This document shows, in pieces, positions 6,166 to 26,132 of a stretch of DNA of 64,000 bases; the stretch's first letter is position 1, and each line of letters begins with the position of its first letter. A program made the position numbers and the translations under genes. Where the stretch lies: positions 806,001 through 870,000 of the forward strand of contig NC_019962.1 of NCBI RefSeq assembly GCF_000230735.2, in the 5' to 3' direction. This stretch comes from Natrinema pellirubrum DSM 15624 (GTDB taxonomy: Archaea; Halobacteriota; Halobacteria; Halobacteriales; Natrialbaceae). The notes under the pieces are model-generated. The model did no database searches, was not told the origin of the DNA, and worked only from the letters and a program-made list of their open reading frames with translations.

Positions 6166-7374
6166 ATGGGTTGGAAACCGAACCGAACTCGCCGGACCTG
6201 GCTGGCGAGTTGTGCCAGTACCGTTGCCGGCGTTTCGGTCCTCGCTGGCTGTACGAGCGATAGTTCCGAAACGAACGAGGACGAGCCCGAGAACGACGAC
6301 GCGCTTTCAGCCGACACGTGGCCCATGTACGGCGTCGATCCACAGAACACGGGGTATCATCCGACGGCGACTGGCCCGACTAGTGAGGATGTTACAGCTA
6401 AATTACTACTTGAATCAAATGGAACAGTTAGCGACAGTCCAGCTGTTATTGGTGACACTCTCTACACCGCTGCTGACAACCAATTATATGCGATTAATAC
6501 AGAGACTGGAGAAAACGAATGGCGGTCCGACTTCCCTGATATACGTGGTGCCTACCCAGCCATCTCTGATAACCGCATATATGTCGGAATGAATGAGGGA
6601 ATTGCTACAGTTAATCGAAATAACGGAAATCTCATTTGGCAAAATAGCGTTGGTATCAGTAATGTTTGTCCAGTAGTTGATAGCGGCGCGGTTATTGCTT
6701 CTGAAAACCTTTTGTTATATCAATTCGATATTGACAACGGTGAAGAAACAATAATTCATAATCTTAGAGATGACAACCTCGGGCGGCCATATACAAGTAT
6801 CCCAGCATATGACGACGGGAGTGTATATTTTGCGGGGGAACATGTTTTATACTCAGTAAATGCCAAAAATGGTTCTGTAGAGTGGACTTTTGAAAACCCT
6901 GAAGGAAAATCTATGGGAGAATGTAATCCAGCAACTGATGGTGAAAACATCTATATAAGCGGTGCGGATAAACGACTGTACACGATTGATACTGAAGATG
7001 GCACACAAAAGTGGTCAATCAAAACAAAAAGTGAAACTCCTCAAAGCCCTTCTCTCGCAAATGGGATTCTATACGTAGTCGCAAGTGATGGTGTTCTGTC
7101 TGGTGGTGGCAGTTGGCTACTCGCTATTGACACTAAAAAGGAAGAGGTGATTTGGGAAGATAGTTTGCAATCGAATATAAATTATAAGCCAGTTATTTCC
7201 AATAGTAGTGTATACCACGCGAACAGCAGACAGGTATTAGCATATGATAGGGAAACAGGGGACAGACGGTGGAAAATTGACGAATTCAATGAACCAATCG
7301 CTGGACCACCGACTATCTCTGATGATCATGCCTTTATATCTCTTAAGTCAGGAGAGATCTATTTGATAACGTAG
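6166..7374 (+). CDS. PQQ-like beta-propeller repeat lipoprotein
   Basis: A 402-residue exported protein. The N-terminus has a twin-arginine motif (TRRTWLA), a hydrophobic stretch and a lipobox LAGC, so Cys29 is probably lipidated after Tat export. At least six repeats of the type D-x-x-x-G-x-x-x-W follow (for example INTETGENEW, VNAKNGSVEW, IDTEDGTQKW, YDRETGDRRW), predicting a BamB-like beta-propeller on the outer face of the membrane. Ligand and partner are unknown; haloarchaea have many such paralogs. The first 70 or so codons are GC-rich like the host, whereas the propeller from about nt 6390 on is strikingly AT-rich, suggesting partial replacement by foreign DNA. Confidence 0.88.
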   Translation: MGWKPNRTRRTWLASCASTVAGVSVLAGCTSDSSETNEDEPENDDALSADTWPMYGVDPQNTGYHPTATGPTSEDVTAKLLLESNGTVSDSPAVIGDTLYTAADNQLYAINTETGENEWRSDFPDIRGAYPAISDNRIYVGMNEGIATVNRNNGNLIWQNSVGISNVCPVVDSGAVIASENLLLYQFDIDNGEETIIHNLRDDNLGRPYTSIPAYDDGSVYFAGEHVLYSVNAKNGSVEWTFENPEGKSMGECNPATDGENIYISGADKRLYTIDTEDGTQKWSIKTKSETPQSPSLANGILYVVASDGVLSGGGSWLLAIDTKKEEVIWEDSLQSNINYKPVISNSSVYHANSRQVLAYDRETGDRRWKIDEFNEPIAGPPTISDDHAFISLKSGEIYLIT

Positions 7375-7392
7375 TGGGCCCAGATTTTGTGT

Positions 7393-10300
7393 CTATTTCA
7401 CTGGAAGTGGTTGGGGAGCGTCATCTGATATGCATCCATGTCTATTATTCATATCATATTTTGTGCCAGCATTTTTCCAACCTTCTGAACAGTGTTCTCG
7501 TGGTGAATTTATATTTCCATAGCGCCACATGTCTCCAACACCCGGCGAACCCTTGGTTACCAATTGTGGACTTGGTACAATGACTGGCACTACAAGTTCA
7601 TTCTCAAACGAGATCGGTTCGACAGAACCAACTGTAAGCTCGTCTTGTGCTGCCCGCGTAGGTGTCTCGATTGTTGTCTCAGTATCTTGCCGGACATACG
7701 TTAATCCAGTAGCGCTCGTTGGGTCACCGTCGGCAGCTCGCACCTCGAACCGGGCGTATTCTCCCTGGACACCAACATAATACGCGTCAAGTTGGAGGTA
7801 GAATAAAGATGGCCACGGCATGAGAGGGAATCCAGGATAGCCGATTCCATCGAAATATCCGGCACCCATGGGCGCATGTTCCGTACTGTTGCTGTCGTCG
7901 ATTGAGAGCGTTTCACCACCGTCCGGACGCACCGCTGGAACGTCGGTTCGATTGACGGGTTCCAAGGTGAGGTAGGTCGGTGATGCTTCGACTTGATAGT
8001 TCACGTCCTCCATCAACGGCGAACTCTCGAGCGATCCCTGCGTCTCCTCGGGTCGCGTTTCGGGATCCATCATCCTATCGACGAAGTCCATCGGTCCGCC
8101 GAGAAGATCGTTACTTGTGTCGAGAAGTCCACCGAGGAGATCATTGAGTATGGAGCTACTCTCACCAAGTGTCGTGTCGTGCCATCTGCTAACTTTGTCG
8201 ATGTTATCGTACGTATTCTCGAAGTACTGTTTGCGAACTTCCGCTCGAAGGAGATCTGCAGTGTTGGCGTATGGTTCGGACGTGTTTTGATACACTAGTT
8301 CGAGTTCGACATCTCTTACGTTGCTCTCGGCGTTCCTGAGCGGACTCGGCCGTTCGACCATATTCCAGAGGTCCGTTCGATGTGGCTTGACACGCGTGAG
8401 GACTTCGTAATGGGTATGGTTGAGTTCGGAAAGCGCCCATTCGTAGAGTTTATCCTCGTTTCGTGGGCTGACATCGATATCGGGATCCGCTGAGTAGGGT
8501 ATCTCCTCTTCGAAGTCACGTTCCGTGATTATCGAAGTACTCGAGGCTTCAAGCGCTCGCTCAAGTTCCCGTTCCTGGGCGTGGAAAGTAGTCGAGTCGA
8601 GATTGAAGGTTTCGCTGACCGCTTTCGTCTTGACACCCTCAAAATTCCCGACGAACTCATAATCTTCGTCCCAGGAGTCTGTTTGGAACGGGGATTCGAT
8701 TCCACGACTTTCCCGCTCCACATCGATGTCATCAGAGACGAGATCGGTACTGATCGTATAGCTCGCGCTGTATGTGATATTGTCTTTCCAATTCCAGTCC
8801 GTATGAGGGGATCGATTCTCGTCTTTATGTTCCCACTCAGCACTAACTCCGATAGAGTTCTCATATTCAACCTCAATTTTGGCGACATTACGATCATCAA
8901 AACTTGTATCCTGATCTTCTGTGAGGACATCAATCGAAACGTCCGCATCAGCTTGAGATGTACTAGCAAAATATGTTGTATTATAAGGTCCAGACCAATT
9001 CCCCGGGTCTTGTGCCCATTCAGTAGGAGAAGAGGGGGTCGGTAAACTCCGATGCTTGTGTGGTCCAGACTCTCTCGTAGATACCTCAATATCATACCCC
9101 TGTTCTATAATATCATTAACATCGTTTTCTAGCCTAACATCCTCATATAGCTGAGCTAGCCCCTCCACTGGGTTATTATCATCTGTAATTGATCCAATAT
9201 CTCCAGCTACGTCCTGATTATTCAACTTATTTGAGAAATAATGGCCCAGATATTGATTACTGAAACGGTTACTTTCTCCAAGAGACTGATTAAACTCCGC
9301 CTCTATCTGCGCCATATCCATCCCAGCCGCCATCTGCATATACCCCAGATCGGCGAACGGATGGGCCTGAACCTCGACATCGGTTTCGACGTTGTCCTCG
9401 AGCATCGTCAGTGCAATCTCCTGAACGGTCGGCGGGTCGGGTAGCTCACCGTCTTGATCGAGTAGGTTGGCGTTACAGAGGTCGGTCTCGTTGGCGAGGG
9501 CGCTGTCGTTAGCGACGAAGTCCTCGGTCTCGATGTCGCCCGCGTTCGAGGTGAGATCGCCGGCCATACACAGCGTCGGTTGGAGCATGGCGCGGTCCCT
9601 GTAGGGGTCGGTCGTGCCGAAGGTTCGCTCTTGCAGGCCGAAGATAGCGTCGTTGACCATGACCTCGGTGTGGTCGTTGGGCGTCAGGTTATCGAACGCC
9701 GGCTGGCCGCTCGAGAGGCGGTCGTAGTAGGCCTTGCCCCAGGTGTAGGGAAACAGCCGGGCAGCCGTATATCGACCGAGGCCGTCGTACTCGTCGGTTT
9801 CGAAAAAGCCGGTGTTGAGCTGGCGCTGGAACTCGTCGGTTCGGTCCTTGAGCTGGTAGAGCGGGGTCGCGACCGAGACGGTCAGATCGCGGCGTTCGGT
9901 GATCGGTTCGCCGTCGCTTTCGTTCCCGATGAGTTCGACGTCTGCGACTTCGACGGTAAGGACACCGGTGTCGGGTCGCTCGAGCGAGATACGGTCGATC
10001 GCGGCTGCGAGATCGTCGCTGTCGTTCCAGTCGATACGGTCGATGGTGACGCCGGCGGCGGTATCGTGGCCGACCTGTTGCGGAGTGGTCGCGAACGATT
10101 CGGCTACCTCCCGGTAGACGAGGAGCTTGAGGTATTGGTCGAAGACGGGCTCGTCATCGTCGAACGCTGCTTCGACGGTCGGGCTCGCACCGTCGGTCGA
10201 CGTGACGGGTGCGCTTGCGGCTGTCTCGGTCGCTCGGAGGACCGATCGCCGCAACTCCGAGACGGCGACCGATTCGGCGCGGTCGATGGCCACTGCTTGT

Positions 10301-10446
10301 TCGGTCTCGACCTCGGGTGTGTCTCTGGAGCCGAGGACGCCGACGATGGCGATGCTGCTGATCAACAGGAGAACTGCGATCAGGGCGAACGGAACTCGGG
10401 CGCGGTCGTCTGCTGCGATCGAAACTGTGGGTTGACTGTCGGTCAT
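7393..10446 (-). CDS. Large membrane-anchored protein of the pilus-like locus (DUF7286-like)
   Basis: A 1017-residue protein with one N-terminal membrane segment (about residues 17-38, FALIAVLLLISSIAIVGVLG) after a short charged leader, followed by a very long acidic, Asn/Thr-rich outer region. The architecture resembles an oversized pseudopilin or surface adhesin. It is the last gene of the locus, starting 1 bp after the stop of the gene at 10448. DUF7286 is assigned from memory of haloarchaeal families. Codons for the N-terminal third (10446 to about 9350) are GC-rich; the rest is AT-richer, although the frame stays open. A beta-rich extracellular stalk is inferred, with no known enzymatic motif. 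Confidence 0.8.
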   Translation of the reverse strand: MTDSQPTVSIAADDRARVPFALIAVLLLISSIAIVGVLGSRDTPEVETEQAVAIDRAESVAVSELRRSVLRATETAASAPVTSTDGASPTVEAAFDDDEPVFDQYLKLLVYREVAESFATTPQQVGHDTAAGVTIDRIDWNDSDDLAAAIDRISLERPDTGVLTVEVADVELIGNESDGEPITERRDLTVSVATPLYQLKDRTDEFQRQLNTGFFETDEYDGLGRYTAARLFPYTWGKAYYDRLSSGQPAFDNLTPNDHTEVMVNDAIFGLQERTFGTTDPYRDRAMLQPTLCMAGDLTSNAGDIETEDFVANDSALANETDLCNANLLDQDGELPDPPTVQEIALTMLEDNVETDVEVQAHPFADLGYMQMAAGMDMAQIEAEFNQSLGESNRFSNQYLGHYFSNKLNNQDVAGDIGSITDDNNPVEGLAQLYEDVRLENDVNDIIEQGYDIEVSTRESGPHKHRSLPTPSSPTEWAQDPGNWSGPYNTTYFASTSQADADVSIDVLTEDQDTSFDDRNVAKIEVEYENSIGVSAEWEHKDENRSPHTDWNWKDNITYSASYTISTDLVSDDIDVERESRGIESPFQTDSWDEDYEFVGNFEGVKTKAVSETFNLDSTTFHAQERELERALEASSTSIITERDFEEEIPYSADPDIDVSPRNEDKLYEWALSELNHTHYEVLTRVKPHRTDLWNMVERPSPLRNAESNVRDVELELVYQNTSEPYANTADLLRAEVRKQYFENTYDNIDKVSRWHDTTLGESSSILNDLLGGLLDTSNDLLGGPMDFVDRMMDPETRPEETQGSLESSPLMEDVNYQVEASPTYLTLEPVNRTDVPAVRPDGGETLSIDDSNSTEHAPMGAGYFDGIGYPGFPLMPWPSLFYLQLDAYYVGVQGEYARFEVRAADGDPTSATGLTYVRQDTETTIETPTRAAQDELTVGSVEPISFENELVVPVIVPSPQLVTKGSPGVGDMWRYGNINSPREHCSEGWKNAGTKYDMNNRHGCISDDAPQPLPVK

Positions 10447-10447
10447 C

Positions 10448-11497
10448 TTACCAGGTCTGAATCGTGATGGTTACCTCGGCGGTCGATACCTCGTCGGCGA
10501 GCAGCGCTGCGATCCGCTCGTCGCGGGCGGTGCCGCTGTACTCGTCGTCGATCGTCGCGATTTCCTCGGCGAAGGCGTCCTGCAGATCCTCGGCGAGCCA
10601 CTCTCCGAGCCCGTCCCGGCCGAATCGGTCCGCGTCAGCGATCCCGCGTCGAACCTGTGCGTTTGCCTCGAGAGCGTCCGCTTTCTCGCGTTTGAGCGGG
10701 CCATGATGGGCGGGGTTCGTCGTCCCGGAGAACTCGTACTCGAGCGGCGCGACCATGCGCTGGTACTGGAAGACGGCGAGTTCGCGGGAGAGGCCCTGAC
10801 TCTCGAGTGCCAGTTGCGTCTCCTCGGGCGGGAAGTAGCCCCGAACGATCGCGTCCCCGAGGACCATACCCGCGGCTTCGAAACCGGCCGAGTCGGAATC
10901 CGCAACGAGGTCGGTTCGATCGCCAAGGCGGTCGTTCCAATCGGTCCCGCCCTCGAGGGACGCGCGTTCGATCTCGTCGGCGTCGACGGCCGGCAGTCCG
11001 CTCGAGGCGGTCAGCGTCACGCTCGAGACGTCCGCGGTCGGTGGCGGCCGTTCGCCGGCGGTCGCCGTCCCGTTGATCGAGGCGTTCTCGTAGGGTTCCC
11101 ACTCGGCGACGGCGTAGAACTCGCGGTCGGACCCGATCAGTGCGCTCCCGATGGCGGCGTCGACGGCGGCCTCGAACTCGTCGCCCGTGGGGCGGATCGG
11201 CGTCCCGTCGATGCGGGCGTTCGCGACGGCCGCATCCGCGAGCAGGCCGGTTGCGGACCCGTACTCGGTCCGGTGGTACTCGCCGGGTCGTTCGGCGACT
11301 GGATCGGCGTCGGCGAGGCTGTACTGGACGCTGATGGTCGTCGCGCCGAGTACCGCGGCCGTGTGGTCGGCCCGGTCCCCGTCGGGGTCGGGTGTGGTCC
11401 CGTACAGGTGGGTACCGAGCAACAGGACGCTCGCACTGACGAGCAGCAGTGCCATCGCAACGTCCATGACCGTACTCACCGCACGATCCGACCTCAT
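10448..11497 (-). CDS. Pseudopilin-like anchored protein (DUF7284-like)
   Basis: A 349-residue protein starting MRSDRAVSTVMDVAMALLL. The charged leader, Arg-Ala-Val and uninterrupted hydrophobic stretch (about residues 9-30) resemble archaeal class III (prepilin) signals cut by PibD/FlaK. The remainder is acidic and predicted extracytoplasmic. The ATG at 11497 is preferred over one 9 nt upstream because it gives an ATGA overlap with the preceding gene's stop. It is the third of four subunit genes behind the promoter at 12836. DUF number from memory; the substrate role is inferred from neighbours. Confidence 0.8.
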   Translation of the reverse strand: MRSDRAVSTVMDVAMALLLVSASVLLLGTHLYGTTPDPDGDRADHTAAVLGATTISVQYSLADADPVAERPGEYHRTEYGSATGLLADAAVANARIDGTPIRPTGDEFEAAVDAAIGSALIGSDREFYAVAEWEPYENASINGTATAGERPPPTADVSSVTLTASSGLPAVDADEIERASLEGGTDWNDRLGDRTDLVADSDSAGFEAAGMVLGDAIVRGYFPPEETQLALESQGLSRELAVFQYQRMVAPLEYEFSGTTNPAHHGPLKREKADALEANAQVRRGIADADRFGRDGLGEWLAEDLQDAFAEEIATIDDEYSGTARDERIAALLADEVSTAEVTITIQTW

Positions 11498-11955
11498 CCG
11501 TCCCACACCCCCACGAGCAGCGTCCCGCCGCGCACGTCGCCGGGAGCCGTCGCCACGGGGATCGAGCGCTCTGCCACGCCGGCCTCCTCGGGCGGGCCGT
11601 CGAGTTCCGCCTCATCAATTGCGTCCGGGCTCGACGTTCCGTCGGTTCCGAACACGGCGGTTCCGACGACGGTTTCACGACCGTCGGCGACGATCGTGAG
11701 TCGGACGTAGACGTTCCGGCCGTGTGGCAAGGATCCGGTCTCGATTCCGTCCGCGAGATCGCCGTCGTGGGCGCGAACGACGCCGTCGCTCTCGAGGTCA
11801 TCGGCGATCCGCTCGAGCGCCGTCGTTTCGGTGGTTCGATCGGTCGTTCCGGGAAGGGTATCGGTGAGATAGAGTCCGTAGAGACCGATCCCGGCGATAA
11901 GCGCCGAGACGGCGACGAGTGCGGCGAGGGGGTCGGTCTGCCCCCGGTTAGACAT
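11494..11955 (-). CDS. Pilin-like small protein (DUF7285-like)
   Basis: A 153-residue protein whose N-terminus MSNRGQTDPLAALVAVSALIAG is the best prepilin-like signal in the locus: Arg-Gly-Gln followed by a hydrophobic helix that would form the filament core. A short globular domain follows (about residues 35-153). The true start is the ATG at 11955; the open frame extends far upstream only as a shadow of the next gene. It overlaps the neighbouring genes by 8 and 4 bp, so it is translationally coupled. A structural subunit or minor pilin is inferred. Confidence 0.8.
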   Translation of the reverse strand: MSNRGQTDPLAALVAVSALIAGIGLYGLYLTDTLPGTTDRTTETTALERIADDLESDGVVRAHDGDLADGIETGSLPHGRNVYVRLTIVADGRETVVGTAVFGTDGTSSPDAIDEAELDGPPEEAGVAERSIPVATAPGDVRGGTLLVGVWDG

Positions 11956-12835
11956 CGACGAGCGTGACATAGAACGAATCAGCCTCCGTATCGCGACGAA
12001 CGTAGCCTCGATCGTCGATACCGGTCGTCTCGAGGGTCTTTCCGCCGGGCGGACAGATCCTGACGGGCTGGTCTCCTCGGTCGGTCCGAACGGTTTCGGT
12101 ACACAGTTGGGTGCCGCCGGCGTTGACCCGCAGGTCGATCGGGAACGACATCGCAGAGTTCTCGTCGAACTGCGCGACGGTCTCGGTCTTCCGCGTTGGC
12201 GTTCCCGTGACCCGCTCGTCGATATGTCCCCGGTCGTCGCTCCCGCTTGCCCGCAGCCGGATCCCGGTTTCTGCGGTCGACTCGTACTCGAAGGTCGCTT
12301 CGTGTGTCTGGTCGCCGGGAACGAGTTCGATGTCGACGGTAGCGCTGACGGACGGTACCGCGCCCGTCGCGACGGTCCGCGTTCGTAACGGCCCGTTCGC
12401 GGTCTGCCACTCGTCGGTGTTCGTCTCGTATGCCGATTCGACGTCCGCCAGAAAGGCATCGATCGCGTTCCGACTCGGATCCCGGACTGCCCCCGCGTAC
12501 TCGTCCTCGACGGCACGGCCGGCGGAGACGTTCTCGAGCCGTTCGTTCCCCGCGACGGGGACCACGTGGCCGTAAGTGAGCGTCGCCCGCGTCGTGCCGT
12601 GTTCGTTTCGCATTGCGACGGTGCGGCCGGTGACCTTGATCGCGGTCGCGTCGTGGTCGTAGGTCGAACTCGCCTCGTAGGGACTGCCGGCCGTCTCCTC
12701 GATGGCGTTGGCTGCTCGGTTCGCGTCCGGTGGCGGGCCGGTCGGTAGACCGAGCGCAACGGTACCGACGGCGGCGCTGACGATGGAGACGGCGAGCCAG
12801 ACGTACCAGCCGTCGATCGGTGCTTCCAGGTGCAT
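11948..12835 (-). CDS. Membrane-anchored protein of the pilus-like locus (DUF7283-like)
   Basis: A 295-residue protein with one N-terminal membrane segment (about residues 10-30, VWLAVSIVSAAVGTVALGL) and an outer domain with two cysteines near the C-terminus (QLCTE and RICPPGG). The ATG at 12835 is chosen because a TATA element sits exactly 31 to 24 nt upstream. It is the first gene of a four-gene block and overlaps the next by 8 bp. It resembles a minor pseudopilin by layout only; no enzymatic motif is seen. Confidence 0.8.
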   Translation of the reverse strand: MHLEAPIDGWYVWLAVSIVSAAVGTVALGLPTGPPPDANRAANAIEETAGSPYEASSTYDHDATAIKVTGRTVAMRNEHGTTRATLTYGHVVPVAGNERLENVSAGRAVEDEYAGAVRDPSRNAIDAFLADVESAYETNTDEWQTANGPLRTRTVATGAVPSVSATVDIELVPGDQTHEATFEYESTAETGIRLRASGSDDRGHIDERVTGTPTRKTETVAQFDENSAMSFPIDLRVNAGGTQLCTETVRTDRGDQPVRICPPGGKTLETTGIDDRGYVRRDTEADSFYVTLVDV

Positions 12836-12918: not shown

Positions 12919-14631
12919 TCAGAGGACGGCACCGATGAGGGCCACCGTCACGACGTACAACACCATCGCGGAGACGAGCGTCCGACCCACGTGATAGCCG
13001 ACGAGAGCGCGATCGATCCCGTGACGCAGCGCGATCGAGAGCGGTGTGATGATGACACACAGCAGTAGCAGGTAGACCCCGATGACGATCCCCAACGACT
13101 CCGTGGGGAAGGCGGCCGCGTCGACCTCGCCAGACGCGACGAGCGCGTCGCTGGCCATCATGTCGGCCATGCCGACGGTGGCACCGGCCACGAGCGGCGC
13201 GAAGTACGCCGCGGTGTTGTCGAGGGTCCCGGTCACCTGTTCGAGGTTCCGCTTGGTCTCTGCCTCGACGGTCTCGAGTTCCTCGAGGTGGTCGGCCATG
13301 GAGACGATGGCGCGACCCGCTGGTTTCCCCTCGTCGGCCGCGATCGCAAGCAGGGCGGCGGTCCCGCGAGCGCGCGGGCTGGGAACGTATCGGAGCGCGC
13401 CGTACTCGCCGAGGAAGGCCTCCCTGACGCCGGTCTGGAGCCGCCGCTGGAGGCCGGCCGCGCGCTCGAAGACGGCGCCGGTTTCGCCGGGGACTCGGTC
13501 GCCGGCGAGTTCGACGGCGGACTCGACGGACTCCCCCTCGGCGACCTGTTGGCCGACGACGTACAGCGCGTCGGTGAGGTGGGCCTCGACGTCGCGGACG
13601 TGGTGTCTGACCGCGAGGATCGGTCGGTAGGTGACCAACAGCGCGACCCCGAGCCCGATACCGATGGCGGCGACGGGCGCGAGGTGTGTCGGACCGACCG
13701 CGACGAGAACGGGATAGCTGCTGCCGCCGGCGGCCACGCCCCAGAGCGGCCGTAGTCGGAGGCGATCGGGGAGCGAGGGGTGGTCGTGACCGATCGTCGG
13801 CGGCGGAAACGCGACCGGCCGGCGAACGAGCAGCCAGAGGCTGGCCCCGACGAGCGCACCGGGCAGCACGACGTTGTACAGGAGGACGACGAGCCAGATA
13901 TTGACGGCATAGCCGACCATCGGCACCGCCGGGACCAGCGAAACCAGCGCGAGCGGGAGCATGATCCCGAAGGCGAACAGTCCGGTCGCCGGCGCACGAA
14001 TAGCCGACGTGAACTCGGCCATCTGGCTACGCGTGCCGTCGAGGACGGCCGACAGCGCGCGATCGAGCGTCCGCAACCGCTCGGCTTCCGGAGCGTCCTG
14101 GGCGGTCGCGAGTAGGTGTGCTGACCGGCGTAACGCCGGGAACCACTCGGCCCACTCCTCGGCGAAGGCCAGCAGCCCCGTCCCCGCGGTGCCCACCGTG
14201 CGATCGATGTGTGCGTCGAGACTCCGCGACAGCGGGCCCGAGCCGGTGTCGGCTGCGAACCGGATCGCGCTCTCGAGGGCGGGCTGGACCTGCATGCGCA
14301 ACACCGCCCGGCCGATCAGGTTCGGGGTGTCGCCGAGGGCTTCGGTCCGTCGAAACGCCGCCCGTAGATGGGGGATCGAGTGAACCGTGTGGATCGCCGC
14401 GATCGGGGCCACGAGGACGAAAAACGCTACGAACGGGAGCGGTGCCGGCGTCAGCAACAGTCCCAGCGGGAGGACGGCAGCGATGATTCCGGCCCCGTAC
14501 CCCGCTCTGACGACCGTCTCGGGGTCGTGGGGCGAACCGGTAAACGACAGCGACTCCGCGAGGCCGTCACTGGCGTCGACCTCGGCCGGGTACAGTGCCG
14601 CCAGCGTACGAACGACGGGCACGGCCGTCAT
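12919..14631 (-). CDS. Type II/IV secretion F-domain membrane protein, TadC-like
   Basis: A 570-residue polytopic protein. It has duplicated blocks of membrane helices (about residues 45-95, 215-270, 305-335 and 490-570) separated by cytoplasmic helical segments, the arrangement of archaeal PilC/TadC platform proteins with two T2SSF domains. The platform sits in the cytoplasmic membrane and is driven by the cognate ATPase, encoded 7 bp upstream. The motif TGTLDNTAAYFAPLVAGATVG near residue 490 is a typical T2SSF ending. Together with the ATPase this defines a type IV pilus-like or secretion machine. Confidence 0.9.
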   Translation of the reverse strand: MTAVPVVRTLAALYPAEVDASDGLAESLSFTGSPHDPETVVRAGYGAGIIAAVLPLGLLLTPAPLPFVAFFVLVAPIAAIHTVHSIPHLRAAFRRTEALGDTPNLIGRAVLRMQVQPALESAIRFAADTGSGPLSRSLDAHIDRTVGTAGTGLLAFAEEWAEWFPALRRSAHLLATAQDAPEAERLRTLDRALSAVLDGTRSQMAEFTSAIRAPATGLFAFGIMLPLALVSLVPAVPMVGYAVNIWLVVLLYNVVLPGALVGASLWLLVRRPVAFPPPTIGHDHPSLPDRLRLRPLWGVAAGGSSYPVLVAVGPTHLAPVAAIGIGLGVALLVTYRPILAVRHHVRDVEAHLTDALYVVGQQVAEGESVESAVELAGDRVPGETGAVFERAAGLQRRLQTGVREAFLGEYGALRYVPSPRARGTAALLAIAADEGKPAGRAIVSMADHLEELETVEAETKRNLEQVTGTLDNTAAYFAPLVAGATVGMADMMASDALVASGEVDAAAFPTESLGIVIGVYLLLLCVIITPLSIALRHGIDRALVGYHVGRTLVSAMVLYVVTVALIGAVL

Positions 14632-14638
14632 CGCGCGA

Positions 14639-16582
14639 TCACTCGTCGGTCCGGTCCGCGTAGGCTCGCGTGACCGCGTCGGGACTCGTTCGGCCCTCGC
14701 CGGCGAGCCGCGAGAGCAGGTCAGTCCGGGCCGCGATCGCCCGGCGCACGTCGGCGTAGGACTCGGTCGGTCCGGCGAGCCGGTCCACCAGCCGGCTCTC
14801 GCCGCGGTCGATCCGACCGGTTGCGACCGCGTCCTCGCCCTCGAGTTCGTACAGCGGTTCGAACCGGTGGGTGTCGCCGTCGTCGATCACCTCCTCGATG
14901 GCGGCGAGGCGGCGGGTTCGGCCGTCGGGGGTCCGGTGGGTCTGGACGGTCACGATCAGATCCGTCGCGGCGAACGAAGAGGGTTCGACACCGAGGTCGG
15001 TCACGACCCGCTCGGCGACATCATCGGCCCCGTCGCCGTGGATCGTCCCGAGGACGGCGTTGGCGTTGGCCCCGACGCGCATCGCCTCGTAGAGGACCCC
15101 CGCCTCCTCGCCGCGGATCTCGCCGACGACGAGCGCGCCGTCGCCCAGCCGGAGGGCGGTCCTGAGTGCCTCGTCCGGGGCGATTTCGGGCCCGTCGCCA
15201 GTACCGGTCCGGAGCGCTTGTACGTCGCGACCGACCGACTGTAACGTGTCGACGGGCAGCTCCGGCGTGTCCTCTATCAGGACCGTCCGCGTCGCCGGCG
15301 GAAGTTCGTACAGCAGCGTGCCAAGCAGCGTCGTCTTGCCGGCCCCTCTCGTGCCGGCGATCAGGGCGGCGGCGTTTCGCTCGACGGCCACCGAGAGCAA
15401 CGCCGCGGCCGCCGCCGATACCGTTCCGTTCGCGACCAGCGCGGGGAGGGTGAACCGCTCGTCCGGCCGCTCCCGGAACGCGAACGCGATTCCGTCGGCG
15501 ACCGGTTCGGTGACGCCGGCCACTCGGATGCCGGTCCCGTTCTCGAGCGCGGCCGTCGCGTCGACGGTCGGGCTCGCCCGGGAAAAGGCCCGGCCGCTGG
15601 TGCGTCGAACCCGGGACGCAAGTGCCTGTGCGCCCGCTCGAGTGAGCGAGACGTTCGTCGGCATCGACTCCCCGTCGACGACGACCCGGATCGGGTTCGC
15701 CGAGACCGGCGAGGTGACGAAGACATCGGTCACGCGCGGGTCCGCGAACAGGTCCTCGAGGACGCCGTAGCCGGCCGTATGCTTCGTGAGAACGCCCGCC
15801 AGTTGGGGAGTGGCCGGCTCCCCGCTCGCGCGTTCGATCGCCCGCGGTCCCGCTCGGTCCCCCTCGACGACCCCCTCGGCGATCGCCTCGTAGCCCTCGA
15901 GGAGGAGCCGGCGGTCACTCTCGGAGAGGGTCGTATCGACGATCTCGAGGGCGTACTGCGGCGTCTCGTCGGGGCGGTCGTAGATCCGTGCCTCGCTGCC
16001 GGTCGACAGCGATCGCGCATCGACGAGACGCGCCCCGTCGGCGATCGACCGATCGACGAAGTAGTGACCGATCGTGAGTCCGACGGTCGCGGTCAGGGCC
16101 GACTCGTAGCCCTCGGCGCGCTCGGCGGCCGCCACGAGTCCCGATTCGACGCCGATGTCCGCGACTGGACCGACTCGGGTCCGGAGTTCCTCGCCGACGG
16201 CGAGCGGGTCCCGAGCGGCGGCCGACGCCAGCCGGTCGTCGCGATGACCAAGCAGCGCGACGAACCGACCGGCCGAGCCCAGCAGGGCGACGCCGCGGTC
16301 TGCGTACCGGCGCTCGAGGCCGTTCGATCGCACGACGATCGCGTTCGCTTCGCGGTCGGCGAGTGCCTCGATCGCGGTCCGGCGACAGGGGACGGACGAC
16401 TCGAGGCAGCCGTCGCAGTCGCTCGCGTCGATCCGGAGCGTCTCCGCGTCGACGGCCGTTCGACACGTACACCCGGTGTCCGGTTCGTCGCCCCAGTTGT
16501 CGAAGAGGCCCCCGAGACCGAGCCGCGTGCCGTCGACGCGATCGACGACCGAGCGGAGCCGCTCGGGTGGGTTCTGTAACAT
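14639..16582 (-). CDS. Secretion/pilus assembly ATPase, TadA/PilB-like (T2SSE)
   Basis: A 647-residue hexameric assembly ATPase. Walker A is GTRGAGKT (410-417), the Asp box is VLIEDTPE (435-442), Walker B is LVVGEIRG (484-491), and the His box contains TIHGDG (513-518). It powers subunit insertion through the TadC-like partner. The N-terminal region is unusual, with five cysteines (38, 40, 56, 59, 66) in CxC and CxxC spacing, likely a metal site. It has its own apparent leaderless promoter just upstream. Direction (assembly rather than retraction) cannot be told from sequence. Confidence 0.93.
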   Translation of the reverse strand: MLQNPPERLRSVVDRVDGTRLGLGGLFDNWGDEPDTGCTCRTAVDAETLRIDASDCDGCLESSVPCRRTAIEALADREANAIVVRSNGLERRYADRGVALLGSAGRFVALLGHRDDRLASAAARDPLAVGEELRTRVGPVADIGVESGLVAAAERAEGYESALTATVGLTIGHYFVDRSIADGARLVDARSLSTGSEARIYDRPDETPQYALEIVDTTLSESDRRLLLEGYEAIAEGVVEGDRAGPRAIERASGEPATPQLAGVLTKHTAGYGVLEDLFADPRVTDVFVTSPVSANPIRVVVDGESMPTNVSLTRAGAQALASRVRRTSGRAFSRASPTVDATAALENGTGIRVAGVTEPVADGIAFAFRERPDERFTLPALVANGTVSAAAAALLSVAVERNAAALIAGTRGAGKTTLLGTLLYELPPATRTVLIEDTPELPVDTLQSVGRDVQALRTGTGDGPEIAPDEALRTALRLGDGALVVGEIRGEEAGVLYEAMRVGANANAVLGTIHGDGADDVAERVVTDLGVEPSSFAATDLIVTVQTHRTPDGRTRRLAAIEEVIDDGDTHRFEPLYELEGEDAVATGRIDRGESRLVDRLAGPTESYADVRRAIAARTDLLSRLAGEGRTSPDAVTRAYADRTDE

Positions 16583-19743: not shown

Positions 19744-21060
19744 TCAGTCCAGGGAGTCGGGAGCCGGTGTTCGATCGATCGTATCGTCGTGGAGGTGACA
19801 GGCCACCGGATGCGATCCGTCTCCCAGTTCTGGGCGATCGCGCTCGCAGACGCTTTCGTACGCCGCCCGAAGTCGGTCCTCGGCCGCGTCCCAGTCCCCG
19901 GTCGCCAGTTCGGCGAGGACGTCCTCGACGATCGTGTCGTGTCGCGGCGGCAGGTCGACCGCGAGCAATCGGTCTTTCAGTGCCGCGACGAACGCGGGAA
20001 CGTCAGAGTCCGGCACCCCACCGTCCTCGATCGTGAACCGATCGTCTCCGCCGACCGATTCGAGGGAGATGTCCCGCTGCTCGATCCGCTGGCGGAGCGT
20101 CATGAGGGCGCGATAGGTCTCCCGTTCGACCTCGAGATCGTCGGGTGGAATCACCATCGGACATCGGGTCCGGAACCGGCAACCGCTCGGCGGATCCCGG
20201 GGGGACGGCACGTCGCCGGCGAGCGTCTCCCGATCGCGCTCCCGTTCGTCGGTCGACGCGCGCGGGACGCTCTCGAGCAACGCCCGCGTGTAGGGGTGAT
20301 CCGGGTCTTCGAACAGGTCCTCGACGGGGCCGATCTCGACGACTTCGCCGAGATACATCACCGCGACGCGGTCACAGACGTGCCGAATCACGGAGAGGTC
20401 GTGACTGATCAGGAGATACGTGAGATCGAACTCCGCTTGCAGGTCGTCGAGCAGGTTCAACACCTGTGCCTGGACGGAGACGTCGAGCGCCGACGTCGGC
20501 TCGTCGAGAACGACGAACTCGGGCTCGAGCGCCAGCGCGCGAGCGATCCCGATCCGCTGGCGCTGGCCGCCGGAGAACTCGTGGGGGTAGCGATCGACCT
20601 GGTCGGCCGAGAGGCCGACGCGCTCGAGCAGGTCCCGAACCCGCTCTCGCCGCTCGATGTCGGTCCCGACCTCGTGGACATCGAGGGGCTGTCTGACGAT
20701 ATCGCCGATCGTCATTCGTGGATCGAGACTCGAGAAGGGGTCTTGGAAGACGACCTGTGCGCGCCGGCGGAAGTCGGTGAGAGCGGCCCCGCTGAGATCG
20801 TAGACGTTCTCGCCGTCGAACTCGACCCGGCCCTCGGTGGGATCCTGCAGGCGAAGCAGCGTTTCCCCCGCCGTCGACTTCCCGCAGCCGGACTCGCCGA
20901 CCAGCCCCAGCGTCTCGCCCTCGTGGATGTCGAAGCTGACGCCGTCGACGGCGCGAACGGGGACCGGTTCGTCCCCGAACAGGCGATCGAGAACCGAATC
21001 GTTCTCCCAGAAGTACTTCCGGAGGTCGTCGACGCGAACGAGCGGATCGTCGGCGCTCAC
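19744..21060 (-). CDS. dppF: Dipeptide/oligopeptide ABC transporter ATP-binding protein, DppF-like
   Basis: A 438-residue ABC ATPase. Walker A is GESGCGKST, the signature is FSGGQRQR, and Walker B is [12 protein letters not shown]. The oligopeptide-transporter C-terminal region begins [17 protein letters not shown], but is then interrupted by about 100 acidic residues before ending ACHLHDD. It couples ATP hydrolysis to peptide import with the other ATPase and the permeases. It is the last gene of a five-gene operon and overlaps the preceding gene by 4 bp. The exact substrate (dipeptide, oligopeptide or nickel) is not determined. Confidence 0.92.
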
Positions 21061-22391
21061 TGGTGTTCACCTCCGGTGGTCTCGGCCGGCTGTCGTGACC
21101 GCTCTTCGGGAGGTTCGGTCTCGGGCTCTTCCGGCCCCGCGTGTTCGTCCCCGGCCGACCGTTCCCTCTCGTCGAAGTAGCCGTCCGAGAGCGCCGCGCC
21201 CTCGTCGTACTCCGTTTCGGCGAGGACACAGCGCGCTCGGTGGTCATCGCTCCCGCCGGCCGGATACTCCGGCGGGTGTTCGAGACACGCCGTCATCGCT
21301 TTCGGACACCGATCGGCGAAGTGACACCGATCGCCCATTTCGTGGTCGAGGAGGCTCGGCACGTTCCCCGGAATGGGCTGGAGCCGGCCGGCCGCATCGT
21401 CTCGCGACTCGGCCGCTCGACTCTCCGCATCGCGTCGCGCCGCATCTCCCTCGAGGTCGGGAACCGAGCCGAGCAGTCCCGCCGTGTAGGGGTGGACCTG
21501 CTCGTCGAAGACGTCCGCTAAGGTCCCGCGTTCGACGATCTCTCCCGCGTACATCACGCCGACCCGGTCGCACATGCGGGCGATGACGCCGAGGTTGTGC
21601 GTGATCAGCAGGATCGTCATCTCGGTCTCCGCCTGCAACTCGTCGAGGAGATCGAGGATCTGGGCCTGGATCGTCACGTCGAGCGCCGTCGTCGGCTCGT
21701 CGGCGATCAGCACGTCCGGCTCGCCGGCCAGCGCCTGCGCGATCATCGCTCGCTGGAGCATGCCGCCGGAGTACTCGTGTGGGTACTCGTCGGCTCGCTC
21801 GACCGGATCCGGAATGCCGACCAGCTCGAGCAGTTCGATCGCCCGGTCGCGGCTCTCCTCGCTAACGTATCGCCGCGAGGGGAGTACTTTGGAGAGCAAC
21901 AGCGATCCCAGCGAGTACTCCGCGGACTCGGTTCGCGCGCGGGTCGACCGCGGGTTGGCGCTGGCCCGGCGCTGGACCTCGACGGCCTCGGCGAGTTGTT
22001 CGCCGACGGTAAGCGTCGGGTTGAAACTGCTCTCCGGGTCCTGGAAGATCATGCTAAACGACGTCCCTCGCAGCGACCGCCTGACGTCGTCGGGGAGTTC
22101 GAGCAGTTTCACGAACTCCCCGTCGATCGCGTCCGGGTGGTCGTCGGCGATCGCCTCGACGAGATCGGGGTTCCGATAGCGGATCTCGCCGTCCGTGATC
22201 TCGCCCGGCGGGTCGATCAGGTTCATGACGGAGCGGGCGGTGACGCTCTTCCCGCTTCCGCTTTCACCGACGATCCCGAAGACCTCACCGCGTTCGATTC
22301 CGAGGTCGAGCGACGAGACCGCGTTTACCTGTCCCTCCTGCGTGAAGTAGCGCGTCGAAAGGTCGGAGACGCGAAGTATTTCCTCTGTCAT
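21057..22391 (-). CDS. dppD: Dipeptide/oligopeptide ABC transporter ATP-binding protein, DppD-like
   Basis: A 444-residue ABC ATPase with Walker [12 protein letters not shown], signature YSGGMLQR and Walker [13 protein letters not shown]. Between the Q-loop region ([17 protein letters not shown]) and the signature there is an extra segment of about 40 residues. The C-terminal cysteine-containing peptide-transporter motif ([14 protein letters not shown]) is present, which in some relatives carries an iron-sulfur cluster. It overlaps both neighbours by ATGA and is thus co-translated. Confidence 0.92.
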
Positions 22392-23383
22392 CTGCCTTCA
22401 CCTTCGATGTTCGGATCCAGTGCATCGCGGAGCCAATCGCCGAGCAAGTTGACGCTGATCACCGCCAGGACGATCCCGATTCCCGGCACCATAGCGACCC
22501 ACGGTCGAGTCCGCAGGACGTCCTGTCCGCGTTCGATCTCGTAGCCCCACGAGAGCGTCGTCCCGGAGAAGCCGAGATACGCCAGCGAGGCCTCGAGCAG
22601 GATGATCGCCGCGACCTGAATCGTCGCGAGGACGATAATCGGCGTGAGGCTGTTCGGGAGCACGTGTTTGAGCAGGATCGTCCTGTCACTCGTCCCGAAA
22701 CTCCGCGCGGCCTTGACGTACTCCTCGCTGCGGATCGACAACGCCTCGCCGCGAGCGACGCGCGCGAACCAAACCCAGGTGACGAGTCCGGCGACGATCG
22801 TGACCGTCCCCGGAATCGGAATCGAGTCGGGCATCCCGTCGACCAGCCCGAGCGCTACGATCGGATCGGGGACGTATATCGGCGATTCCCCGAAGACGCC
22901 GATCAGCGCCAGGGCGAGGACGAGCGCCGGGAACGCGAGCATGGTGTCGGCGATGCGCATCAGCCCGTCGTCGACGCGGCCGCCGTAGTAGCCCGCAGCC
23001 AGCCCGATCGGAACGCCGATCACCACTGCCAGTGCCGTCCCAAGGAGGCCGACGAGCAGCGAGACTCGCGCTCCGTAGAGGAACCGGGAATAGACGTCCT
23101 GTCCGACGTTGTTCGTCCCGAGTACGTGTTCGGTGGTCGGCTCGACCGTCACGTCGACGATGTCGCCGTCGTCAGCGACCGATGTCGTGTATTCGTGGCC
23201 GAGCGGGGGATACTCCGCACCCTGTTCGTCGTAGTAGCCCGTCCGCGTCGGATTGTGGGTGGCCAGTACCGGCGCGAACACCGCCATGAAGACGATCGAC
23301 GCCAACAGCACCAACCCGAGCTTCGGGAGCAGGCTCTTCCTGAACGTCTGCCAGAGATTCGATCTGATTCGGTCCGAGATCAT
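22388..23383 (-). CDS. dppC: Dipeptide/oligopeptide ABC permease, DppC-like
   Basis: A 331-residue permease with an N-terminal helix (about residues 22-42), a long outer loop and a binding-protein-dependent transport domain with five further helices. The EAA-type loop reads EYVKAARSFGTSDRTILLKHVLPNS, which docks on the ATPases. The ATG at 23383 overlaps the previous gene's stop (ATGA); a longer upstream frame is only the shadow of dppB. It forms the import channel with the DppB-like protein. Confidence 0.92.
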   Translation of the reverse strand: MISDRIRSNLWQTFRKSLLPKLGLVLLASIVFMAVFAPVLATHNPTRTGYYDEQGAEYPPLGHEYTTSVADDGDIVDVTVEPTTEHVLGTNNVGQDVYSRFLYGARVSLLVGLLGTALAVVIGVPIGLAAGYYGGRVDDGLMRIADTMLAFPALVLALALIGVFGESPIYVPDPIVALGLVDGMPDSIPIPGTVTIVAGLVTWVWFARVARGEALSIRSEEYVKAARSFGTSDRTILLKHVLPNSLTPIIVLATIQVAAIILLEASLAYLGFSGTTLSWGYEIERGQDVLRTRPWVAMVPGIGIVLAVISVNLLGDWLRDALDPNIEGEGR

Positions 23384-24447
23384 TGCTCGCTCACCCGCGG
23401 ATCGAGATAGTTGTAGACGGCGTCGACGGCGATGTTGATCGTCACGAACGCGATGGCGATGAACACCACGATCCCCTGCATGAGCGGCCAGTCTCGCGTT
23501 CCGAGCGCGTCGATGAGGCGAAGCCCGAGGCCCGGCCAATTGAACACGGTCTCGGTGATGACTGCACCGCCCATCAGGGTCCCCATCTGGAGCCCGAGGA
23601 CCGTAATGACCGGGATCATCGTGTTCCGCAGCACGTGCTTGTAGCGAACGAGTACCGAGGGGAGCCCCTTCGCTCGACTCGCCGTGACGTAGGGCTTCCC
23701 GAGTTCGTCGACCATGCCGCTCCGGGTGAGGCGGGTGATGAGCGCGGTGAAGTACGTCCCGAGCGTAAGCGCCGGGAGCGCGATGTGTTTCAGCCAGACC
23801 AGCAGGTCATAGACCGACCCGTACCGGACGAGCGTCAGCACGGCCTCCCCGAAGCCGACCGGTCGACGACCGGTCGGGAAATCGTAGAAGCCGACGCTCG
23901 GGTAGGGGATGCTGATGCTTGCCAGCGAGACCCACGACAGACCAAAGGTCGGGTACGGGATTCCGAACCAGACGCCGAACACGAGGATCAGCATGAGCCC
24001 GAGCCAGAAGTTCGGCGTCGAGATGCCAAGCAGCGAGAACAGCGTGGCACTGTAGTCGGCGGGCTCGTTCCGCCGCGTCGCCGAAATCACGCCCAGGGGG
24101 ATCGCGATGACGAGGGCGACGATCGTCGCGGCGATCGTCAGTTCGATCGTCGCGGGGATCCGTTCGATGACCATCGCTTCGACCTCCCGGTTCGACTGCC
24201 AGGAGTATCCGAAGTCGCCGGTGATCAGTTCCCGCACGTAATCGAAGTACTGGACGTAGACCGGTTCGTTCAGTCCTTCTTCTCGTCTGACCTGTTCCAC
24301 TAACTCCTGAGTTGCCCCTTCCGCGAGCATCAGGTTCGCCGGATCGCCGGGCGCAACTGCCCGGAGTCCGAACATGATCGTTACGACTCCCCAGATGACG
24401 ACGATTCCCTGCAGCAATCGCCGTACGAGGAACTTAGCCATCGACAT
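23380..24447 (-). CDS. dppB: Dipeptide/oligopeptide ABC permease, DppB-like
   Basis: A 355-residue permease with six predicted helices. The start FLVRRLLQGIVVIWGVVTIMF is the classic DppB opening helix, and the EAA-type loop is KPYVTASRAKGLPSVLVRYKHVLRN. An ATG six bases further in is equally plausible as the start. It lies about 60 nt downstream of the substrate-binding protein gene and is fused to dppC by a 4-bp overlap. Confidence 0.92.
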   Translation of the reverse strand: MSMAKFLVRRLLQGIVVIWGVVTIMFGLRAVAPGDPANLMLAEGATQELVEQVRREEGLNEPVYVQYFDYVRELITGDFGYSWQSNREVEAMVIERIPATIELTIAATIVALVIAIPLGVISATRRNEPADYSATLFSLLGISTPNFWLGLMLILVFGVWFGIPYPTFGLSWVSLASISIPYPSVGFYDFPTGRRPVGFGEAVLTLVRYGSVYDLLVWLKHIALPALTLGTYFTALITRLTRSGMVDELGKPYVTASRAKGLPSVLVRYKHVLRNTMIPVITVLGLQMGTLMGGAVITETVFNWPGLGLRLIDALGTRDWPLMQGIVVFIAIAFVTINIAVDAVYNYLDPRVSEQ

Positions 24448-24511
24448 GTGATAGTCTCATTAAATTGGAGGGTCGGGGACCGTCTCGTTCACTCTCAGGC
24501 GTGGTCCGGTG

Positions 24512-26107
24512 TTACGTCTCCATGCCCCAGATGTAGACGGTCTCGTCCTCGCGGGGCTCCCACTGGATGTCCTCTCTCACGCCGTAGATGCTCTCCTGGG
24601 TGTGGAGGAACAGGAACGGTGCTTTCTCGTGGGCCAATTGGTTGACTTCCTCGAGTTGCGCCCGGCGATCGTCGGGGTCCTCGATCTGTTGGCTCTCGAG
24701 GATCGCGTCGCTGAGTTCCTCGTCGTCGAACGTCCGGTTCGGGTTGTCCGGGATCGTAAAGAAGCCCTGGACGCCGTAGTCGGTGTCGCCAGTAATGGTT
24801 CCCCAGCCGATCATGAAGAAGGGGATCTCGAACTCGTCGGGGTCGACCCCGGCCTGATTCGCGTCCGAGACGATGCCGAAGTCGACGATGTTGGCGTCGC
24901 AACTGACGTTCTCGAGTTGGTCGATCTGGTCGGCGACCGTCTCGGCGACGTCGGCGTCGTTGAGGTAGCGGCCCTGTGGTGCGGTCAGTTCGATCTCCAC
25001 GCCGCCGTACCCGCTCTCGTCGACGAGGCTCTCGGCCATGCCGACGTCCTGTTCGTAGGGTTCGATCTCGTCGTTGAAGCCGTTGATCCCCGGCGCAACG
25101 GGCTGGCCGCGCGGTTCTCCGAACCCGCTGAGGATCGTGTCGACGATCTCTTCGTTGTCGACGGCGTAGTTCATCGCCTGTCGGAACTCCAGACTGTCGA
25201 ACGGTTCGACGGTGTTTTTCATCGGACAGAAGATGTTCCGGAAGCTCGTTACCTGCCTGATTTCGACGTCGTCGGCACTCCGAACCGTATCGACGTCCTC
25301 CGGGAGAACGTTGATCGTCAGGTCCGTCTCTCCCGTCTCGAGCGAGTTTACCCGACCGCTGGATTCGCCGTCCGCGTTGAAGACCACGCGCTCGAACGGC
25401 GGCTCGTCGCCCCAGTAGTCGTCGAACCGCTCGAGGACGATCTCCTCGCCCGACGTGAAGTCGACGACCTCGTAGGGCCCCGTCCCGTTGAAGACCTCGG
25501 GATCGGCGCCGGAGATCGCCTCGTTCTCGGCGTCGTGGTTTTCGATCGCCCACTCCATGTTCATCGCACGGGCGTAGTTCCCGAACTCGAACTCCGCGAG
25601 TCCGGGTGCGGCGGAGTACTCGACCGACACCGTCGTCTCGTCGACCGCGCTCGCACCATCGATCGACCCCAGTCCGAAGGTCCCGATCGGACTCGGGACG
25701 CCCATCTCCGGATCGACGGTCCGATTGATCGTCCACGCGACGTCTTCCGCGGTCAGATCGTCCCCGTTGTGGAACACCACGTCGTCCCGCAGGGAGAGTT
25801 CGGTCGTCCCGTCGCCCTGGGCCTCCCAGTCTTCGACGACCCGGGAGAAGATGCCTTCCCCGGGCTCGAAGTCGAACAGCGGCTCGTAGATGTGGTCGTA
25901 TACGTCGAAGAAGTCCCCGGTGATGTGATCGAGCGGATCCACCGTATCCGGGAACTGTGAGAGCGTGATCGTGAGTTCGTCGGTGCCGTCGTCGTCGGAT
26001 GGATCACCGAGACAGCCACTCATCGCCGCGAGACCCGTCGTCCCCGCGGCACCGGTGAGTTTCAGCAGCGTTCGTCGATCGAGTCGCGTAGTGTCCATGG
26101 TTCCCAT
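24512..26107 (-). CDS. dppA: ABC transporter peptide-binding lipoprotein, DppA-like
   Basis: A 531-residue extracytoplasmic solute-binding protein (SBP family 5). It carries a twin-arginine signal (DRRTLLK) and a lipobox SGC, so it is Tat-exported and lipid-anchored. Family features include TLSQFPDTVDPLDH, YEPLFDF and DVVFHNGDDLTAEDV. Three starts are possible (GTG 26113, ATG 26107, ATG 26098); 26107 is preferred because in the sequence before the IS insertion a TATA box sits about 26 nt upstream of it. It is the first gene of the operon, and its native promoter is now cut off by an IS66-type element 26 bp upstream. Confidence 0.92.
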   Translation of the reverse strand: MGTMDTTRLDRRTLLKLTGAAGTTGLAAMSGCLGDPSDDDGTDELTITLSQFPDTVDPLDHITGDFFDVYDHIYEPLFDFEPGEGIFSRVVEDWEAQGDGTTELSLRDDVVFHNGDDLTAEDVAWTINRTVDPEMGVPSPIGTFGLGSIDGASAVDETTVSVEYSAAPGLAEFEFGNYARAMNMEWAIENHDAENEAISGADPEVFNGTGPYEVVDFTSGEEIVLERFDDYWGDEPPFERVVFNADGESSGRVNSLETGETDLTINVLPEDVDTVRSADDVEIRQVTSFRNIFCPMKNTVEPFDSLEFRQAMNYAVDNEEIVDTILSGFGEPRGQPVAPGINGFNDEIEPYEQDVGMAESLVDESGYGGVEIELTAPQGRYLNDADVAETVADQIDQLENVSCDANIVDFGIVSDANQAGVDPDEFEIPFFMIGWGTITGDTDYGVQGFFTIPDNPNRTFDDEELSDAILESQQIEDPDDRRAQLEEVNQLAHEKAPFLFLHTQESIYGVREDIQWEPREDETVYIWGMET

Positions 26108-26124
26108 ACCCACACATTACGATA

Positions 26125-26132
26125 GTATTATT
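26125..26132. repeat. Target-site duplication, left copy
   Basis: GTATTATT directly abuts the left end of the insertion sequence and is repeated exactly at 27783-27790. Eight base pairs is the usual duplication length for IS66-family elements. Confidence 0.9.

Follow-up and report, generated by a model that had tools for sequence, protein, structure and literature searches.

This locus raises the question of whether an unusually AT-rich tract across the tails of two convergent genes records a recombination event, and if so, whether its composition is a trace of that event. The genes lie in the window, by which we mean the whole analyzed stretch of 64,000 nucleotides (positions 806001-870000 of chromosome 1 of Natrinema pellirubrum DSM 15624, genome 4.35-Mb); coordinates below count from its first base. 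The propeller gene (6166..7374, + strand) and the DUF7286 gene (7393..10446, − strand) face each other, and according to the ORF list and the sequence their stops are 18 nt apart (7375..7392). As the initial annotation had stated, both frames are open, and the region 6385-9350 is AT-rich, with a GC of 0.464 compared to 0.65-0.72 in the surroundings. The background was a 484-kb sample of the genome, made up of 18 scattered 20-kb samples together with the window and the 60 kb to its left; in this sample the 3-kb windows had a mean GC of 0.652 (SD 0.040), 0.2% of them were at or below 0.49, and the tract was the minimum.

The propeller gene encodes a predicted Tat lipoprotein of 402 amino acids with a PQQ_2/BamB-like beta-propeller. 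Pfam PQQ_2 was matched with 118 bits (cut-off 27.6), the AlphaFold2 model (pLDDT 86) has strands from residue 78 onward, and Foldseek retrieved BamB and PQQ propellers, while the score for the BamB equivalog model of NCBIfam (TIGR03300), 110 bits, was under the cut-off of 285.2. Haloarchaeal Tat lipoproteins are recognized by a twin arginine and an LAGC-type lipobox 12-21 residues apart (PMC2945643). The protein fits this description, with RR at residues 9-10, an LAGC lipobox at 26-29 that ends in C29, and 18 residues between; R9, R10, G28, and C29 are invariant across 43 relatives. In the propeller gene of genome G022 (L066:9665-10762) an in-frame TGA shortens the protein to 366 amino acids and the similarity runs on past the TGA; it is an allele recently broken or shortened.

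The 1017-aa product of the convergent gene belongs to DUF7286 (Pfam PF23957, 340 bits, cut-off 27). It has an N-terminal transmembrane helix at residues 19-39, followed by a weakly pilin-like part (residues 46-198) and a variable C-terminal ectodomain. Its structural model (mean pLDDT 73) came closest to a competence pilin of Thermus, with a middling Z of 5.9. For the C-terminal part Foldseek returned nothing at an E-value of 0.001 or better and a second structural comparison gave only middling Z scores, so we claim no fold for it. A sequence search found no solved relative of the protein below an E-value of 0.01, and the literature search found no paper on DUF7286. The cluster continues on the − strand with the DUF7284 gene (10448..11506; PF23955, 285 bits), a DUF7285 coding region (11494..11910; PF23956, residues 284-419 of an ORF ending at 11494), an ORF for a multi-pass membrane protein (12919..14631) that matched no Pfam family and is placed, by position only, as a putative TadC-like platform protein, and a TadA-like type II/IV secretion ATPase (14639..16582; Pfam T2SSE, 68 bits; NCBIfam TadA family, E-value 3.5e-40, under that model's cut-off). 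With a secretion ATPase in the same cluster, DUF7286 is associated with a Tad-like or type IV pilus-type system. DUF7286 is present in 287 of 392 genomes in a sample of the order, compared to 10 of 29 Natrinema genomes, and within the genus the cluster is thus patchy, 19 of the 28 other genomes (G001-G028) giving no DUF7286 match at all. A second dip in identity, without a dip in GC, was seen upstream of DUF7285 at 12001-12400, where the window is 78-82% identical to N. mahii, N. thermotolerans, and G005, and pairs from another clade are about 60% identical. Position, signals and weak structural matches, and these only, suggest that the two proteins may function as a pilus-linked surface pair.

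To what extent the tract has been exchanged is best seen in comparison with two relatives, N. thermotolerans DSM 11552 (G007) and N. mahii H13 (G004), the genome of the window being G000. Over 124 kb analyzed in 3-kb windows, the identity to N. thermotolerans was 96.3% (SD 1.3) outside the tract, whereas within it only 57% of the bases aligned, at 77%, and the identity profile fell to about 50-80%. To N. mahii, on the other hand, the identity was 92.5% outside the tract and 96.1% inside it, over its full length. The best two-breakpoint fit placed the left border at 6363-6375 and the right border at 9348-9372, and positions up to 6378 on the left and from 9328 on the right were within two log units; the log-likelihood gain was 673, whereas 200 permutations never gave more than 10. 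The jumps in divergence that the initial annotation had anticipated at about 6390 and 9350 were therefore found within tens of bases of these positions. Together with the alignment, the fit delimits the left breakpoint interval (6363..6378) to the codons for HPTATGP, just upstream of the first propeller strand (residue 78), and the right interval (9328..9372) falls on residues ~358-373 of DUF7286. Between them lies the exchanged AT-rich cassette (6376..9347), comprising all propeller blades and DUF7286 residues ~366 to 1017.

The tract shared 921 of 959 informative sites with N. mahii, compared to 226 of 1062 outside. The flank tree paired the window with N. thermotolerans with 100% support and left N. 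mahii close, the tract tree paired it with N. mahii with 100% support, and in AU tests the tract and flank trees rejected each other's topology with p at most ~0.0015, at 5000 replicates, which are few for AU according to a warning of the program. Synonymous divergence (dS) from N. thermotolerans was 0.04 in the N-terminal half of DUF7286 and from 1.5 to saturated in the tract; from N. mahii it was 0.22 in the N-terminal half, 0.10-0.14 in the tract, and 0.17 in the short tip. The sequences on both sides are conserved and GC-rich. The left anchor (6166..6363, +), the 5' part of the propeller gene with the signal, lipobox, linker, and WPMYGVDPQNTG motif, shares 97% of its amino acids with N. 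thermotolerans and 93% with N. mahii, with mixed informative sites, while the right anchor (9372..10446, −), the N-terminal part of DUF7286, has the low dS to N. thermotolerans. In one homologous replacement, both genes have thus had their C-terminal parts exchanged, and the N-termini, signal, and promoters were kept. On this point the initial annotation, which had proposed such an event with AT-rich DNA as its trace, is supported.

Which of the two lineages received the new cassette is a separate matter. Because 15% of the other 3-kb windows match N. mahii as closely as the tract does, the window's cassette could be ancestral and common with N. mahii by descent, N. thermotolerans being the recipient. 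The flank trees, in which N. mahii stays close, fit this direction as well, but synonymous divergence from N. mahii is about half as high in the tract as in the adjoining N-terminal half of DUF7286, and we give this direction somewhat less than an even chance. It is a question of direction only and is compatible with the explanation preferred below. Each species is represented by one genome in these relationships. Elsewhere in the window, 20001-27000 and the part from ~52300 onward are without a counterpart in the compared N. thermotolerans stretch and are mostly present in N. mahii and G005; from ~52300 this may simply reflect the end of the compared stretch.

Several sources of the cassette were considered. 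The reading as an inserted foreign island was rejected, as an orthologous pair occupies the same site in nine Natrinema genomes, each of a different species. A mobile reservoir of alleles found no support either: no relative of DUF7286 was detected in the plasmid collection or among the IMG/VR viral contigs, and the propeller relatives in mobile elements were distant (under 30% identity), occurring in plasmids and, in two cases, in phage records.

The base composition of the tract is not uniform. The GC is ~0.41 at 6500-7500, ~0.53 at 7500-8750, and 0.43 at 8750-9250, being lowest at the propeller blades, the DUF7286 tip, and DUF7286 residues 390-520 and milder between them. The dip is strongest at third codon positions: GC3 is 27-41 along most of the propeller gene and 23-70 in the part of DUF7286 inside the tract, compared to 72-90 in the first 320 codons of DUF7286. 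A dip with the same borders was present in all nine Natrinema species that have the convergent pair, including N. thermotolerans and N. mahii. Because all nine orthologs share dip and borders, the dip is not the mark of the exchange, and the part of the initial annotation that took the AT-rich composition as such a mark fails, all the more as most of the family has the same dip around the propeller. It follows that the AT-richness is a lasting, lineage-wide property older than the exchange. If this genome had recently taken up foreign AT-rich DNA in one event, the mosaic and the low GC would both be accounted for, and a replacement with these borders is indeed real; for the composition, however, the nine orthologs refute this scenario, and we regard it as highly improbable. 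Selection on protein sequence, which the initial annotation had considered the meaning of a composition shift in all orthologs, was rejected too: the shift is there, but it peaks at GC3, and DUF7286 orthologs without a propeller that are ~55% identical keep a GC3 of ~80 throughout. Further AT-rich stretches, with a GC of 0.50-0.55, were seen in the chromosome at L172:6943-18930, L173:1-4681, and L179:3541-15872.

Could the location alone explain the composition? If mutation pressure were locally different, or codon selection relaxed, where 3' ends converge, no special exchange would be needed, and the drop of GC3 as divergence rises (Spearman −0.70, 71 windows) would be in line with this. Convergent 3' ends are, however, not AT-rich in general in this genome: their mean GC3 is 0.761, compared to 0.771 for tandem ends, and both 3' ends were below 0.60 in one of 37 sampled convergent pairs, the propeller/DUF7286 pair itself. 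In addition, a faster clock cannot explain the pattern: in one species pair the synonymous divergence increases more than 20-fold across sharp borders, and in another it falls below that of the flanks. There is thus very little to be said for a local effect of this kind.

At each of the 45 loci across the family that have a propeller, its GC3 was below that of the first 300 codons of DUF7286, with a mean difference of −0.32; at two of these loci, from genus g46, both genes lie on one strand instead of converging. The GC3 of the C-terminal part of DUF7286 minus that of the N-terminal part was −0.17 with a propeller and −0.04 without one (mean of nine loci, one of them at −0.19), and 30 further DUF7286 loci in other parts of the order were likewise mostly flat. 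The AT-rich zone extends into DUF7286 in Natrinema, g35, g5, g6, g41, and g40, whereas it ends at the gene end in g8, g43, and g47. In G415 and G032 a close DUF7286 ortholog (L129 and L070, 55-56% identical to that of the window) is without a propeller and flat in GC; each of these genomes has a second DUF7286 locus elsewhere, and that of G032 (L073) has a convergent propeller. The main rival that such data bring up is slow amelioration of an ancient acquisition, in which the propeller and the AT-rich C-terminal part of DUF7286 entered the family once, out of a source that was itself AT-rich, and have since undergone ordinary drift with occasional recombination. The AT-richness does follow the presence of the propeller, and loci without one are mostly flat. 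Against this, the zone ends at different points across genera, and the composition stays low although synonymous sites are near saturation, which calls for a maintaining force. We therefore consider the ancient acquisition unlikely, if less so than the recent import.

The alleles themselves are very different even among close relatives. Natrinema pairs with 92-99% identity in DUF7286 residues 1-300 have propellers of 35-75% identity, except for the window and N. mahii (94%). G015 and its sister species N. versiforme JCM 10478 (G026) are 94% identical in these residues and 44% in the propeller, and so possess different propeller types. Within DUF7286, the hypervariable segment (8883..9279, −; residues ~390-521) is 38-52% identical in amino acids across Natrinema species, the window/N. 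mahii pair excluded, and the variable C-terminal tip (7393..7497, −; residues 984-1017) is 37-44% identical to N. thermotolerans and G005. In the family, divergence climbs from the start of DUF7286 to the propeller in most pairs (pS 0.22, 0.37, and 0.73 for G254/G309), while two close pairs of loci without a propeller showed no clear rise toward the C-terminus of DUF7286 (pS 0.20 to 0.23 and 0.21 to 0.23). G220 and G382 have a propeller and no excess divergence in the tract, which counts against the cassette model. Where dS was unsaturated, dN/dS in the tract was 0.07-0.3 and gave no sign of positive selection; higher values came only from the short tip at the C-terminus (up to 0.48) and from one short comparison of the hypervariable segment (0.32). 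Synonymous divergence in the tract is near saturation between species, a figure that low codon bias may somewhat inflate. Given this divergence and the low dN/dS, the alleles are old; they look long kept and moved by recombination, rather than like products of fast adaptive change.

Taken together, the tract is very probably a long-lived, AT-rich, hyperdivergent allelic cassette that is reshuffled between Natrinema species via conserved GC-rich coding anchors. The cassette would combine the blades of the surface propeller lipoprotein with the exposed C-terminal portion of DUF7286, the pilin-like protein, and crossovers would land in the anchors inside both genes. Because the genes are convergent, a single double crossover would swap both ectodomains, and both N-termini, signals, and promoters would stay; the window and N. 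thermotolerans, otherwise ~96% identical, differ by one such exchange. Interspecies homologous recombination has been reported to be frequent in Halobacteria (PMC4500145), and in most of the prokaryote groups tested, core genes that recombine have a higher GC content (PMC4450053). Alleles too divergent for internal recombination would lose GC-biased gene conversion, and the AT-richness may thus reflect alleles long cut off from GC-restoring recombination, an idea with which the low GC and the fall of GC3 at higher divergence agree.

By signal and topology, the variable parts are predicted to lie outside the membrane, and for this reason contact with viruses or other cells is the likely source of the diversity: the variable parts may be contact surfaces kept diverse by viruses or by cell-cell recognition. 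Are the two halves matched? Among the nine Natrinema species, propeller distances tracked those of the hypervariable segment and the tip beyond what the N-terminal part predicts (partial r 0.69 for the segment and 0.78 for the tip, falling to 0.49 and 0.66 when N. mahii is left out), and in 43 family loci the partial r with the whole DUF7286 C-terminal part was 0.45. The propeller and DUF7286 tract trees differ (AU p below 0.001), so the halves have also been exchanged apart and re-paired. That blades and ectodomain are matched partners in self/non-self or contact recognition, with the convergent layout kept for their joint swap by double crossover, is hence a speculative idea that we put forward tentatively.

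Variable outer-membrane proteins of Neisseria are recombination-driven mosaics, in which exposed segments are exchanged homologously between conserved flanks. Natrinema differs from those mosaics in that, owing to the convergent arrangement, two genes have their exposed parts replaced in a single event. Polymorphic toxin systems likewise have a conserved N-terminal part, a variable C-terminal part, and a variable neighbor gene, but here the cassette is single copy and its alleles stay alignable homologs instead of being different domains. Pfam and NCBIfam searches found no toxin or immunity domain, only DUF7286, and a search of G000 with the window's own protein gave one DUF7286 match and no stand-alone C-terminal cassettes. 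Compared to the homologous replacements between haloarchaeal species (PMC4500145), which it resembles, the exchange described here repeatedly affects one defined cassette, which has a base composition of its own and whose anchors are fixed. Among described archaeal systems, VARTIG of Thermococcales comes closest; its hypervariable C-terminal domain is exchanged in place between species (PMC8416519). Both involve a large archaeal surface protein whose hypervariable C-terminal part is swapped in place and does not follow the species tree. The Natrinema pair differs in that it has no Ig domains (none matched in the Pfam search), comes from another group of archaea than Thermococcales, has two convergent genes per cassette, is AT-rich, and is linked to a Tad-like cluster; no small stand-alone donor genes were seen in this Natrinema genome. 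As the VARTIG study searched other archaea via Ig-type domains (PMC8416519), the propeller/DUF7286 pair would escape that search.

The locus also advises caution, in that an AT-rich mosaic tract need not represent recent foreign DNA; a composition can persist while exchanges occur inside the cassette. Self/non-self recognition is poorly known in archaea, and the present analysis points to a variable module beside a pilus-type cluster as a target for tests of virus adsorption and cell contact. For these organisms, the gene layout would let one recombination event replace the exposed ends of two proteins together, and exchange as a unit would keep these exposed parts very different even among close relatives.
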